Under the pieces are notes generated by a model. It saw only the letters and a list, made by a program, of their open reading frames with translations, searched no databases and was not told the origin of the DNA. This document shows positions 9,233-15,357 of a stretch of DNA of 62,163 bases, piece after piece (positions within the stretch are counted from its first letter, which is position 1; each line of letters begins with the position of its first letter). Both the position numbers and the translations under genes were made by a program. The DNA comes from a virus. The stretch covers positions 1 through 62,163 of IMG/VR virus record IMGVR_UViG_3300013126_004346; one strand, 5' to 3'.

Positions 9233-9697
9233 ATGAAATTAGTATTATTACAATTATACTTATTTTTTATATCTTTTGGTTATTCTCAAAATGAATTACT
9301 AAATAAAGCTAATTCTGGAGATCACGCTTCTGCAACAATGGTAGGAATATATTATAAAAATGGAGAAAATGGATTTGAAAAAAATACATCCGAGGCAAAG
9401 AAATATTTTAAAATTGCAGACGATAATGGTAGAAAAGAAGGAAATTTTGTCGGAGCATTTATGCTTGGTGTTTTAGAATATCAAAATAATCCAGAAAAAT
9501 CTTTTGAAATTTGGGCTAAAATGAGGCATGATAATGAAATTCATAAAGCTAAATTTAAAAAAGAAATCAAGCATTCAGAGATAATAAAAAATCAAAAAGA
9601 GATTTTATCTGAATTAAAAAACATAAAAAAACAAAATTCTAATTTACGAAGAAGAATCGCTGACGATTTAGAAGATGGAATAGCTAGTCAAGAATAA
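9233..9697 (+). CDS. secreted Sel1/TPR-like repeat protein
   Basis: 154 aa. A signal-peptide-like N-terminus (hydrophobic residues 3-15, then GYSQ). Residues 20-100 carry Sel1-type pairs: ANSGDHASATMVGIYYKNG..., TSEAKKYFKIADDNGRKEGNFVGAFMLGVLEY. The C-terminal 50 residues are charged and probably coiled coil. Sel1 repeats mediate protein contacts. Export would place it in the host envelope, but no lysis or exclusion role can be read from the sequence. Confidence 0.68.
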   Translation: MKLVLLQLYLFFISFGYSQNELLNKANSGDHASATMVGIYYKNGENGFEKNTSEAKKYFKIADDNGRKEGNFVGAFMLGVLEYQNNPEKSFEIWAKMRHDNEIHKAKFKKEIKHSEIIKNQKEILSELKNIKKQNSNLRRRIADDLEDGIASQE

Positions 9698-10806
9698 TGA
9701 ATATTGCATTTAAAGAAGCTTTGGGATACGACGATATCGCATTGCTACCTAATTTTTCAGATATTTCTTCAAGAAAAGAAGTTTGTACGATAACTAAAAT
9801 ATCTAAAAACAAATACATTGATTTGCCTATTATTCTATCTCCTATGGATACAATATCATCGGTAAAATCTTGCATTAAAATAAATAAATTAGGCGGCGCT
9901 GGTGTTTTGCATAGATTTATGTCCTGTGAAGAGCAAGCCGCAAAAGCTAAAAAGATCAGAGAAGAAAGTAATTTTTGTGTTACGGCTATAGGATTAAAAG
10001 ATGCCTTTGAAAGAATAAAAATTACTAATTCATATACAGACATCTATTTTTTAGACACGGCTAATGGTTTAGCTAAAAATGTTGAAGATTTTTTATGTTG
10101 GTATAAAACGTCTTCTTTTATACAAGATATAATTGTTGGAAATACATTAACAAAGGAAAGCGTTTACAGACTTGCTAATTTAAAAGCTGATGGATTTAGA
10201 CATTTAATTGGGCCTGGAAGTATGTGCCTAACTCAAATTAAAACTGGTATTGGTTGTCCAAGTGTTACTGGTTTGTCATATGCTTGGAAAGCGGTAAGAA
10301 ATTTTCAATTGGCTAATTTAGATTATTTTAGACAAGAAAATCCGAAAGAAGAAAACAGGCCGAGTATTCTCGCTGATGGAGGAATTAGATATCCTAGAGA
10401 TTTAGTTAAAGCCATAGTAAGCGGGGCTGATGCTGTTGTCTGTGGTAGGATTTTCGCAGGGCTTGCAGATGTTATAGATGAAGAAAATATAATAGAAAAA
10501 GATGGCAAAAGATATGGTAAATATAGAGGCATGGCTAGTCAAGATGTAGTAGAAGATTACGAGCTTTATGATGGAACGAAAAAGAATTTGTTTGTAGAAG
10601 GCGATAAAACTCTTGTGCCATTAATTGAAGATCTAACAATTGAAGATGTTGTTTATGATTTTGTAAATGGTTTAAGAAGTTCCATGAGTTATTTAAATTT
10701 TAAATCTATTGAAGAAATGCGAGGATCTCTTTGGACAGGCAAAACAAAAGCTATTCGAGTTTCTCCAAATAATGCATATGAGAGTTTCGCCCATGGAAAA
10801 ATTTGA
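9697..10806 (+). CDS. GMP reductase / IMP dehydrogenase family enzyme, GMP reductase favoured
   Basis: 369 aa without CBS domains (GMP reductases are about 345 aa, IMPDH usually about 490 with CBS). Family motifs: SPMDTISS (about 48), IGPGSMCLT with the catalytic cysteine at C177, ILADGGIRYPRDLVKAIVSGADAVV, KYRGMASQ and NGLRSSMSY. The Asp-Arg-Tyr flap of IMPDH after GMGS is not visible. The region around VEGDKTLVP is closer to the GMP reductase layout. GMP reductase makes IMP from GMP with NADPH. With the adenylosuccinate synthetase 1.5 kb downstream this would turn guanine into adenine nucleotides. IMPDH activity cannot be excluded. Start shares bases with the previous stop (TAATG). Confidence 0.8.
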   Translation: MNIAFKEALGYDDIALLPNFSDISSRKEVCTITKISKNKYIDLPIILSPMDTISSVKSCIKINKLGGAGVLHRFMSCEEQAAKAKKIREESNFCVTAIGLKDAFERIKITNSYTDIYFLDTANGLAKNVEDFLCWYKTSSFIQDIIVGNTLTKESVYRLANLKADGFRHLIGPGSMCLTQIKTGIGCPSVTGLSYAWKAVRNFQLANLDYFRQENPKEENRPSILADGGIRYPRDLVKAIVSGADAVVCGRIFAGLADVIDEENIIEKDGKRYGKYRGMASQDVVEDYELYDGTKKNLFVEGDKTLVPLIEDLTIEDVVYDFVNGLRSSMSYLNFKSIEEMRGSLWTGKTKAIRVSPNNAYESFAHGKI

Positions 10807-12103: not shown

Positions 12104-12327
12104 GTGAAGATTTACCAGAAAATATAAATTTAAACCATATAACGCCTTATATTAAGGCTTATGATAGAGCGCCAATACACAGGCTTGCACCAAAAATGCA
12201 AAGAAATGATTTATGTAAGGTTTCTGGTAAAAAATTTAAAAATTGCTGTGGACAAGGAAATCAAATTAATTATTGCAAAGTAATGTTAGAAAGTTTTTTT
12301 GAAAAAGATATAAAAAATGGAAGTTGA
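12100..12327 (+). CDS. SEC-C motif mini-protein
   Basis: 75 aa from the ATG at 12100, chosen because it overlaps the previous stop by ATGA (an ATG at 12085 is possible). It carries RNDLCKVSGKKFKNCCG, the SEC-C zinc motif found at the C-terminus of SecA and in many small proteins; one cysteine of the usual CPCGSGKK form is changed. Function beyond zinc binding unknown. Confidence 0.68.
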   Translation: MSEDLPENINLNHITPYIKAYDRAPIHRLAPKMQRNDLCKVSGKKFKNCCGQGNQINYCKVMLESFFEKDIKNGS

Positions 12328-13321
12328 GTTTGTTGATGTAATTTTTGGGCTTTGTTGGGGTGATGAAGGCAAGGGTAAAATTAGTAATGCTATATCAAAA
12401 GATTATGATGCTGTTTGTCGTTGGAATGGAGGATCAAACGCTGGACATACGGTTTATATAAATGAAAAGAAGCACAAAACTCATATTGTCCCTTGCGGAA
12501 TATTTTCTTCTAAAAAAAGTATTATTGGTCCGAACTGTGTAATTAGCGTAGATGGTTTTTATAAAGAGATAGAATATTTAAAAAATGAAGGATTTGATAC
12601 ATCTTTAATAAAGATTAGCCCAAAAGCTCATATTGTAACTCAATCTCATATAGATTATGATTTGAAATTTTTAAAAGAAAAACTCGGAACAACTGGACAA
12701 GGAATTGCTCCAGCCTATGCAGACAAAATGCTAAGAATAGGAAAGCTTGCTAAAGATTTTATAGATAAAAAATATATATGGGATGGTGAATTATATGGTA
12801 AAATATTGTGTGAAGGTGCTCAAAGTTTTTGGCTTGACATAAACTATGGAGATTATCCATACGTTACAAGTAGTGAGACTTTACCGTATTCTGCTTGCTC
12901 GCTAGGATTTTCTCCAAAAAAAATAAGAGATATAATTGGTGTGGCGAAAATTTATGATACAAAAAGCGGTAAAGATCCATTATTTCCAGAAACTTTATGG
13001 GACGATCCTATTTTAAATAAAATTATAGAGCTTGGAAAAGAGTTTGGCTCAACAACTGGAAGAAAAAGAATTGTTAATTGGTTGCGACTAAATAATCTAA
13101 TAACTGCAATAAAATTATCTGGAGCCAATAAAGTAATAATAAATAAATGTGATATTCTACAAGAAATAAATGAATATAAAATATTATTAGATGATGAATA
13201 TGGGCCGAATTTTATAAAATTTATAGACTTTGAATCAATGAAATCATATATTACTAATGAACTAAAGAAAATAAAAGATTTTTCTGAGGTTATTTTTTCT
13301 GGTAATAAAAATGGAATTTAA
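12317..13321 (+). CDS. purA: adenylosuccinate synthetase (archaeal-size PurA; PurZ0-like possible)
   Basis: 334 aa, close to archaeal and phage forms (about 340) and shorter than bacterial PurA (about 430). It has GLCWGDEGKGK with the catalytic Asp at D16, GGSNAGHTV with the catalytic His at H44, EGAQSFWLDINYGDYPYVTSS and GSTTGRKR. NKCDIL matches the nucleotide-binding (T/N)KxD site. PurA joins Asp to IMP. Typical phage PurZ, which acts on dGMP in the 2-aminoadenine pathway, replaces the Asp; here it is kept, so PurA activity or a PurZ0-like enzyme are the two options. No DatZ, MazZ or DpoZ is seen in the window. Confidence 0.88.
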   Translation: MEVEFVDVIFGLCWGDEGKGKISNAISKDYDAVCRWNGGSNAGHTVYINEKKHKTHIVPCGIFSSKKSIIGPNCVISVDGFYKEIEYLKNEGFDTSLIKISPKAHIVTQSHIDYDLKFLKEKLGTTGQGIAPAYADKMLRIGKLAKDFIDKKYIWDGELYGKILCEGAQSFWLDINYGDYPYVTSSETLPYSACSLGFSPKKIRDIIGVAKIYDTKSGKDPLFPETLWDDPILNKIIELGKEFGSTTGRKRIVNWLRLNNLITAIKLSGANKVIINKCDILQEINEYKILLDDEYGPNFIKFIDFESMKSYITNELKKIKDFSEVIFSGNKNGI

Positions 13322-13529
13322 ATTAATAAAATCTAAACCTCATTATAAAAAGTATATAAATAAGTTTAAAGATACTCATTTATCTCAAGCAATATTTAAA
13401 GATAATAATGATTCTCCAAATGAATATCCCTGCCTATGCTATACTTATGTAAGTAATGATATTAATGGTATTGGGTATAAAAGTGTTTTTGTGTATAAAA
13501 AAGATTTTAATTTATTTTCTAATGTTTAA
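13311..13529 (+). CDS. hypothetical protein, 72 aa
   Basis: 72 aa overlapping the end of purA by 11 bases. Lys/Asn/Tyr-rich, with YPCLCYTYVSNDINGIGYKSVFVYKKDF. No family recognised. It ends in a convergent overlap with the HNH gene. Confidence 0.45.
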   Translation: MEFKLIKSKPHYKKYINKFKDTHLSQAIFKDNNDSPNEYPCLCYTYVSNDINGIGYKSVFVYKKDFNLFSNV

Positions 13530-13889
13530 AATAAAATCTATAGTTTCTTTTTTAGTAAAATCATTCTTCATAACATTTATGCAGTAACATACAAATTCAA
13601 CATTGCCTTGAATATATCCTTTATTTGGATCTATCCTATCTAAACTCAATTTAGTGGGACTTTTCTTTATGTCTTCATCTTGAGAACTTCTCGGAATTTC
13701 CATTTTTATATTTGTATATGGACATAAACCGTTCTGATTATCGTAAATCTTTTTGAGGTATTCTAAAGTCAGATCAGTTTGCTCTCCTCTTTCTCTACTA
13801 CGAGACCTTGCTTTATTTAAAGAGTATTTGAATGGACTATATTTGTCCAATCTACATTTATAATTTTTTTTTGATTTTATTTTATGCAC
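13512..13889 (-). CDS. HNH-type endonuclease-like protein
   Basis: 125 aa from a GTG at 13887-13889. The C-terminal part (NGLCPYTNIKM..., LSLDRIDPNKGYIQGNVEFVCYCINVMKNDF) has the SLDRIDPxKGYxxGNVxxVCxxxNxMK layout of phage HNH-related homing nucleases. The first His of a standard HNH is not obvious, so activity is uncertain. It lies 21 bases downstream of the tmRNA on the same strand and may be read through from the tmRNA promoter. Confidence 0.68.
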   Translation of the reverse strand: MHKIKSKKNYKCRLDKYSPFKYSLNKARSRSRERGEQTDLTLEYLKKIYDNQNGLCPYTNIKMEIPRSSQDEDIKKSPTKLSLDRIDPNKGYIQGNVEFVCYCINVMKNDFTKKETIDFILNIRK

Positions 13890-13910
13890 AAATTAATTTA
13901 TTAAATTTCT

Positions 13911-14298
13911 TGGACCCGAAAGGAGTTGAACCTTTGTCTTTTAGAGAACTTAAATTAAAATACTACAGGTTTATTTCTTTTTATTTTTTGCCTTTTATAG
14001 ATAAAGAACAAACATAATTGGCGATTTTATTTTTAATACTAAATATTAATAGAATAAAAAAACTATTAGTATAAAGACATCTAAATACGCAATATTCCAG
14101 TAGATGTGTCGTGGATATCACGCTGTAGAACTTAGGCTACAGAAACGGTCTCCTCAGCTAGAGAGACTCTAGCAGAGATATGACCTTTGTATTTAGCTGT
14201 TTTGGCAGTTAATACTTTTAAGGCTTTTTAAAGAGACCCACCTAAACCTCTACCTGCATTTTAATCTCGATTCCTAAAATCGAAACCAGTACGGGCCC
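13911..14298 (-). ncRNA. ssrA: phage-encoded tmRNA (transfer-messenger RNA)
   Basis: The acceptor stem pairs 5' GGGCCCG (14298-14292) with 3' CGGGTCC (13918-13912). It includes the G3-U70 wobble that marks tRNA-Ala and tmRNA, followed by discriminator A; CCA is not encoded. The T arm is AAAGG-TTCAACT-CCTTT. The 5' domain has ACTGGTTTCGA, the tmRNA D-region signature. A reading frame starts after TTAACT at GCC (14206-14204). It encodes a 24-residue tag that begins AKTAKYKGHI and ends EETVSVA. The TAA stop (14134-14132) sits in the loop of the hairpin CTGTAG/CTACAG. Length is about 388 nt. tmRNA with SmpB rescues stalled ribosomes and tags the nascent protein for proteolysis. No smpB is seen here. 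Confidence 0.92.
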
Positions 14299-14318
14299 AA
14301 TGTTAAAGAACTATATTT

Positions 14319-14347
14319 ATATTACAATAGATTTTGACTTTTATCAA
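14319..14347 (-). promoter_or_regulatory. sigma70-like promoter of the tmRNA
   Basis: Minus strand TTGATA (14347-14342), 17-bp spacer, TAATAT (14324-14319). The mature tmRNA 5' end is 21 bases beyond the -10 box, leaving a short 5' precursor for RNase P. Its -35 box lies 2 bp beyond that of the divergent plus-strand promoter. Confidence 0.6.
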
Positions 14348-14721: not shown

Positions 14722-15357
14722 ATGAGTTTTTTAAATGCAAATATCCCTCCAATTGAATGTTATGTAAGAGGAAATTATTTAAGAAATCAAGAAGATAGTC
14801 ACGATAAATATTTTCAAGTTTTAATATTTGGAGTAACATCGTTACCTTCTCAAGTCCCACTTTTTAATTTTATCATGGAAGATGGTGGAATTTGGTGGCA
14901 TGCACCAATTAGTGCGTTTTGCTCAAAAGAAGGTGTTCCAGAGCAAGATATTCATGAACTAGAATTATGGGATAGTTTTAGTTATCATATAGCAGTAACT
15001 AAATTTTCTATATTTCAAAATAAGAAATTAAAATTTTTATCTAGAAATGGGAAAGAGCATTTTGGAACATATTTATTTACGCTTGATTGGGCGCATAGTG
15101 ATTATAATGAACTTAATTTTGGGTTCAGTGAAAATCCTGGACAACATAAGTGTGGACATGTACTACAATTAGATAATGGTAATTTTGCTATACAACCAAA
15201 TAATAGATTAAGATTATATGATCCAAATTTTGTTACAAAACAAGGACAAAATCTTATTGAACGTAAAGTAAATAGTCATATTTATAGTGTTGAAAATTGT
15301 CCTAAATGGGTAAGCGAAGATTCTGATAATTACGAATATAAAATAAATCAAATTTAA
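14722..15357 (+). CDS. conserved large-phage protein, probably virion-related
   Basis: 211 aa. The N-terminus (NANIPPIECYVRGNYLRNQ...GVTSLPSQVPLFNFIMEDGGIWWHAPISAFC) is of a type I associate with proteins conserved across large marine and freshwater phages; no function is assigned to it. Trp/Tyr-rich, no membrane segment. A structural or virion-assembly role is a guess from the conservation style and the neighbouring genes. Confidence 0.6.
   Translation: MSFLNANIPPIECYVRGNYLRNQEDSHDKYFQVLIFGVTSLPSQVPLFNFIMEDGGIWWHAPISAFCSKEGVPEQDIHELELWDSFSYHIAVTKFSIFQNKKLKFLSRNGKEHFGTYLFTLDWAHSDYNELNFGFSENPGQHKCGHVLQLDNGNFAIQPNNRLRLYDPNFVTKQGQNLIERKVNSHIYSVENCPKWVSEDSDNYEYKINQI

Follow-up and report, generated by a model that had tools for sequence, protein, structure and literature searches.

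The window analyzed here is a whole IMG/VR virus record (IMGVR_UViG_3300013126_004346; 62,163 nt, or 62 kb), probably a genome fragment, and it carries a tmRNA gene with an HNH/endonuclease VII-like gene directly behind it (Table 1). tmRNA releases stalled ribosomes and marks the incomplete proteins on them with a tag. ARAGORN called a single tmRNA in the window, with the coding part at 93-167 of the gene, and found no tRNA there. The RF00023 covariance model matched 13908-14298 over its full length (model positions 1-374) with 106.7 bits (E 1e-40), above the curated gathering score of 47 bits. A sequence-only reading of this DNA had proposed a complete phage-borne tmRNA and had named a minus-strand ARAGORN run and RF00023 as its checks; both call the gene at 13911-14298 and, together with 56 relatives, they bear the proposal out.

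Table 1. Genes and RNA features at and around the tmRNA locus, in window coordinates.
Feature	Position	Strand	Basis and remarks
IMPDH/GMP-reductase-like gene	9697-10806	plus	
Adenylosuccinate-synthetase-like gene	12317-13321	plus	Shorter than PurA; WGDEGKGK retained
HNH/endonuclease VII-like gene, immediately downstream of the tmRNA	13512-13889	minus	PHROG 3322, E 5e-26; many relatives have a member of this family behind the tmRNA
One-piece tmRNA gene	13911-14298	minus	ARAGORN; RF00023; covariation in relatives; mature RNA about 388 nt before CCA
Acceptor stem, 3' strand and discriminator A, without encoded CCA	13911-13918	minus	Sequence; relatives alike
T arm AAAGG-TTCAACT-CCTTT	13919-13935	minus	Compensatory changes in the stem
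Hairpin CTGTAG-CCTAAGTT-CTACAG, tag stop codon in loop	14123-14142	minus	100% paired in relatives, with little variation
Tag reading frame, 24 codons and TAA	14132-14206	minus	ARAGORN; pN/pS for codons 1-18 in relatives
Acceptor stem, 5' strand GGGCCCG	14292-14298	minus	Sequence; partner 13912-13918 (CGGGTCC); G3-U70; pairs 5 and 6 show compensatory changes
Leader box AGTTCTTTAACATT, immediately upstream of the 5' end	14299-14312	minus	Conserved in relatives; boxA-like
Predicted sigma70-type promoter TTGATA-N17-TAATAT	14319-14347	minus	20 nt upstream of the mature 5' end; same place in nearly all relatives
Ferredoxin-family protein gene	14722-15357		PHROG 'ferredoxin'
Run of about 25 same-strand genes	27599-51918	plus	200-460 aa each

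The elements on which the sequence-only reading had built its case could all be found in the sequence, namely the G-U at acceptor pair 3, the T loop TTCAACT, the motif ACTGGTTTCGA in a D-region signature that reads TGGTTTCGA / ACTGGTTTCGA, and a frame of 24 codons whose TAA sits in the hairpin loop. The G3-U70 acceptor stem and T arm expected of an RF00023 member are thereby present, as is an open tag frame that stops in a hairpin and is conserved as protein. The tmRNA strand folds better than 100 of 100 shuffles (z-score -4.4). Its gene ends in TCC-A-AGA, and since CCA is not encoded, an enzyme must add it.

Relatives of the gene were found in other viral contigs. The first two were reached via the neighboring ferredoxin gene, and a degenerate pattern for AKTAKYKG then returned 73 stretches in IMG/VR, of which 61 held a tmRNA according to ARAGORN and a few more when read by eye. 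In an alignment of 56 distinct IMG/VR tmRNAs, standard pairs filled 97.8% of 3,012 pair cells, vs. 33-50% when the partner was slid by one to three columns. Changes on both sides were seen at 17 pairs (238 cells), a level reached by no shuffle, and all five T-stem pairs showed compensatory changes. The co-varying pairs and the model match whose absence would have spoken against a tmRNA are therefore both in evidence. G3-U70, the identity rule by which the earlier reading expected the RNA to be chargeable with alanine, is kept in all relatives, eight apparent exceptions being due to a one-base misalignment of the 5' end. The first stem of PK1 and both helices of PK2 were supported, with covariation, and the second stem of PK1 and PK3 were poorly resolved in this alignment. 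In four loci (L120, L126, L127, and L128) and in tmRNAs with a second tag type (L186, L194, and L289), the PK3-PK4 region is swapped for a different module that is about 32 nt longer; because the remainder is alike, this replacement suggests module exchange within tmRNA genes. A trailer such as AGTAAACGAATCCCTCTGTCTGCATTTTTATTAGA recurs directly 3' of the tmRNA (L085, L090, L110, L115, L132, L153, L289, and others), with and without an HNH gene; it resembles a tRNA 3' end (CGAATCC…CTCCA) and is possibly a decayed tRNA or a displaced gene end.

A promoter-like sequence of the form TTGNNA-N17-TATAAT precedes the tmRNA in nearly all relatives and matches up to 12 of the 12 consensus bases. Between it and the 5' end lies the leader box, which varies among relatives (..CTCATT, ..GATATT). 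BoxA is an antitermination element of rRNA leaders, and we take the leader box to be similar to it; by this analogy the box may be an antitermination or processing signal. A string resembling a T4-type late promoter (TATAAATA) also precedes the window tmRNA and was rejected, as relatives do not conserve it. Among the 56 genes of the window, 11 have a Shine-Dalgarno-like site upstream (background 6%).

The tag (AKTAKYKGHISARV…) reads in full AKTAKYKGHISARVSLAEETVSVA, a long peptide of net positive charge with an unusual SVA end, just as the sequence-only reading had described it. Among 46 distinct tag sequences of this kind (type 1), codons 1-18 gave a pS of 0.33 and a pN of 0.02 (ratio 0.06), a pattern that points to strong purifying selection on this part of the frame. 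The terminal S-V-A is nearly constant in type 1 tags, but the hairpin that holds the stop codon also fixes these residues. A second, diverged type, AK[STP]AKLKGSFSLRVSH.K..LIAA, has exactly 24 residues as well. Both types have AKxAKxKGxxSxRVS in common and differ in their last eight residues, which makes the N-terminal part the more conserved one. Further long tags were found in other IMG/VR tmRNAs (L175, L178, L200, L205, L209, L220, L231, L234, and L245; e.g., ANDQSFAMTVAEADALLNSFEFEAAEALAA), among which an AExNVI.YDFSY type recurs, and phage tags often seem to be longer than the usual bacterial ones.

The surroundings of the gene are those of a phage: a virus record, phage genes on either side, and conservation in related viral contigs. 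Next to the tmRNA lie the adenylosuccinate-synthetase-like and ferredoxin-family genes, and further away are genes for both ribonucleotide reductase subunits, DNA polymerase III alpha, and a sigma-like factor. Together with the IMPDH/GMP-reductase-like gene, the synthetase-like gene points to purine nucleotide supply. A PurZ assignment (2-aminoadenine DNA) for the latter was set aside, given that WGDEGKGK is kept and that it scores better as PurA. In the long run of plus-strand genes, the few that were scanned include a C-methyltransferase and a RecA-like protein, and much of the run may consist of sugar or glycan genes. The largest related contig (171,916 bp) carries the same tmRNA, four tRNAs, and a terminase that reaches at most about 28% identity, in alignments covering no more than two thirds of it, among the cultured-phage matches listed. 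A BLASTN search of INPHARED phage DNA gave no match to the tmRNA, and no close cultured relative was found for the phage lineage. Family searches found neither SmpB nor ClpP in 24 related records nor psbA, a cyanophage sign, in 27, both sets being incomplete records; a T4 gp23 family search was without a match, as was its control, which makes it uninformative.

We consider it likely that the locus encodes a functional, phage-borne, one-piece tmRNA that works with host partners, rescues stalled ribosomes, and tags their proteins. This is the best explanation for the full-length RF00023 match, the tag called by ARAGORN, the covarying pairs, the retained G3-U70, the low pN/pS, the promoter, the recurrence in dozens of contigs, and the failure to find SmpB or ClpP in the 24 related records, which would leave the phage dependent on host factors. 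Ribosome rescue is the likely role judging from the tmRNA anatomy. Transcription would be driven by the gene's own sigma70-type promoter, after which host enzymes would trim the RNA and add CCA, host AlaRS would charge it with alanine via G3-U70, and host SmpB would bind it. During infection, the RNA would enter ribosomes stalled on broken mRNA and add the 24-residue tag, ending at the hairpin TAA; host proteases would probably degrade the tagged product, and ribosomes would stay usable while mRNA is being destroyed. The earlier suggestion that tagging is redirected away from host proteases finds no support in the tags compared, and the LIAA end of sister phages is close to the common ALAA.

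What counts against this explanation is the stronger conservation of the tag's N-terminal part relative to its end, since a mere degradation signal would have no need of it. The tag might then not be mainly a degradation signal at all: its first 15-18 residues (AKxAKxKGxxSxRVS) could have a separate job, for instance to bind a factor of the host or the phage, to guide the proteins that carry the tag, or to shield those proteins from proteolysis by the host, with rescue still taking place. In favor of such a job, codons 19-24 have a pN/pS of about 1.1 in the type 1 tags, driven by codons 19 and 21, vs. the far lower value for codons 1-18, and both tag types are 24 residues long and have the N-terminal motif, while their last eight residues differ. 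However, SVA and LIAA are both small hydrophobic ends, like those of degradation tags, and SspB is a proteolysis adaptor that binds the E. coli tag. The conservation would fit adaptor binding as well as another function, and it may also reflect needs of the resume-codon region; on balance, we regard a separate job for the N-terminal part as rather unlikely.

The gene at 13512-13889 has an HNH-type nuclease domain (PHROG 3322, 1035, and 3118) and is without the N-terminal part present in most relatives. Of 41 genes scanned directly downstream of the tmRNA on the same strand, 32 matched a PHROG endonuclease/HNH family, and by BLASTP these 32 form one family. Other tmRNA loci have unrelated genes, or none, at this position, and the HNH gene is absent from the same place in L032 and L075; the gene is thus tied to one locus and is present in some relatives and absent from others. 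Conversely, querying IMG/VR with the HNH protein returned 22 close loci, and ARAGORN found a tmRNA just upstream in 19 of them. For two others (L316 and L325), reading the same contigs (L093 and L104) by eye revealed the tmRNA, and the last locus (L317) is truncated by the end of its contig. Close relatives of the HNH gene therefore directly follow a tmRNA wherever the upstream DNA is readable, and were found nowhere else. Because of this exclusive linkage, the gene is probably a free-standing homing nuclease that spreads the locus between phages, homing being the simplest reading that we infer from it. A bolder proposal, to which we assign a low probability, is that the tmRNA and its own HNH homing nuclease form a mobile cassette whose conserved N-terminal tag sequence acts beyond degradation and lets the phage put a label of its own on stalled proteins.

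Returning to a functional phage-borne tmRNA, a bacterial origin of the DNA itself was weighed. Phages are known to integrate at tmRNA genes (PMC3029335), and the window could in principle be a piece of bacterial chromosome, or an attachment site that remained after integration into a host ssrA, misfiled as virus. This is very improbable, since the gene is complete and no fragment, it lies in an IMG/VR virus record among phage-type genes, and it recurs in contigs as long as 172 kb, of which the largest has a terminase. Moreover, the tag pattern gave 9 matches in 84,980 species genomes, none of them in a tmRNA, and a looser motif was found in none of 1,462 genomes sampled from four phyla (those of a Bacteroidota, a Patescibacteria, a Pseudomonadota, and a verrucomicrobial genome), so that no host was pointed out. 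A passive relic, in which a host tmRNA acquired by the phage drifts without function, is likewise very improbable and is contradicted by the covariation and pN/pS results: tmRNA fragments are known in phages and prophages, with mycobacteriophage DS6A retaining only the tRNA-like part (PMC4131195, PMC9004378), but the window gene is not degenerate, because its 56 relatives show compensatory changes throughout, keep G3-U70 and, in nearly all cases, the sigma70-type promoter, and preserve an intact tag frame in which most changes are synonymous.

tmRNA genes in phages are already known. They occur in Bacillus phage G, in cluster C mycobacteriophages (Bxz1 group), and in Wildcat (PMC4131195), in huge phages (PMC7162821), and, in two-piece form, in Melnitz and Pelagibacter phage Mosig (PMC9004378). 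The sequence-only reading was right that phages carry them, whereas its "a few phage groups" falls short of the 402 of 18,146 phage genomes reported (PMC9004378). Against this background, the window tmRNA is one more such gene, from an uncultured phage group without close cultured relatives. New are the tag family with its two related 24-residue types (…SVA and …LIAA), which occurs in no bacterial genome tested and whose string was found in no paper by full-text literature search, and the HNH endonuclease linked to the tmRNA in both search directions. Phage tmRNAs are known yet hardly studied, and some 60 environmental phage contigs amount to a natural alignment for comparing the RNA, its tag, and the two alternative ends of that tag. 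With these contigs it becomes possible to test how a phage benefits from having a ribosome-rescue RNA of its own, and whether the tag has a role beyond that of a destruction mark. Given the exclusive tie to a single HNH family, genes of this kind may be able to spread by homing, as in the tRNA region of T4.

In T4, the free-standing nuclease SegB favors inheritance of its linked tRNA region (PMC2988022), and the window resembles it in that a nuclease gene adjoins phage tRNA-type genes. SegB is a GIY-YIG nuclease within a tRNA cluster, whereas the window gene is HNH/endonuclease VII-like and lies beside a tmRNA, with homing being our inference. Like the bacterial one-piece tmRNA (RF00023, ssrA), the window RNA has the G3-U70 acceptor stem, the T arm, the D-region signature, and PK1, followed by a tag frame that starts from an Ala codon, a stop in a hairpin loop, and further pseudoknots, and its core shows no departure from known tmRNA. 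It differs from the bacterial RNA in its 24-residue tag family, absent from the bacteria tested, in the SVA end, in the lack of an encoded CCA, and in being carried by a phage. With the tmRNAs of phage G, the Bxz1 group, Wildcat, Melnitz, and Mosig it has in common a place in a lytic-type phage genome and a need for host partners. Its tag is unlike those that we read in phage G (AKLNITNNELQVA) and Mosig (GEDNFALAA) and, in contrast to the two-piece RNAs of Mosig and Melnitz, it is a one-piece tmRNA.
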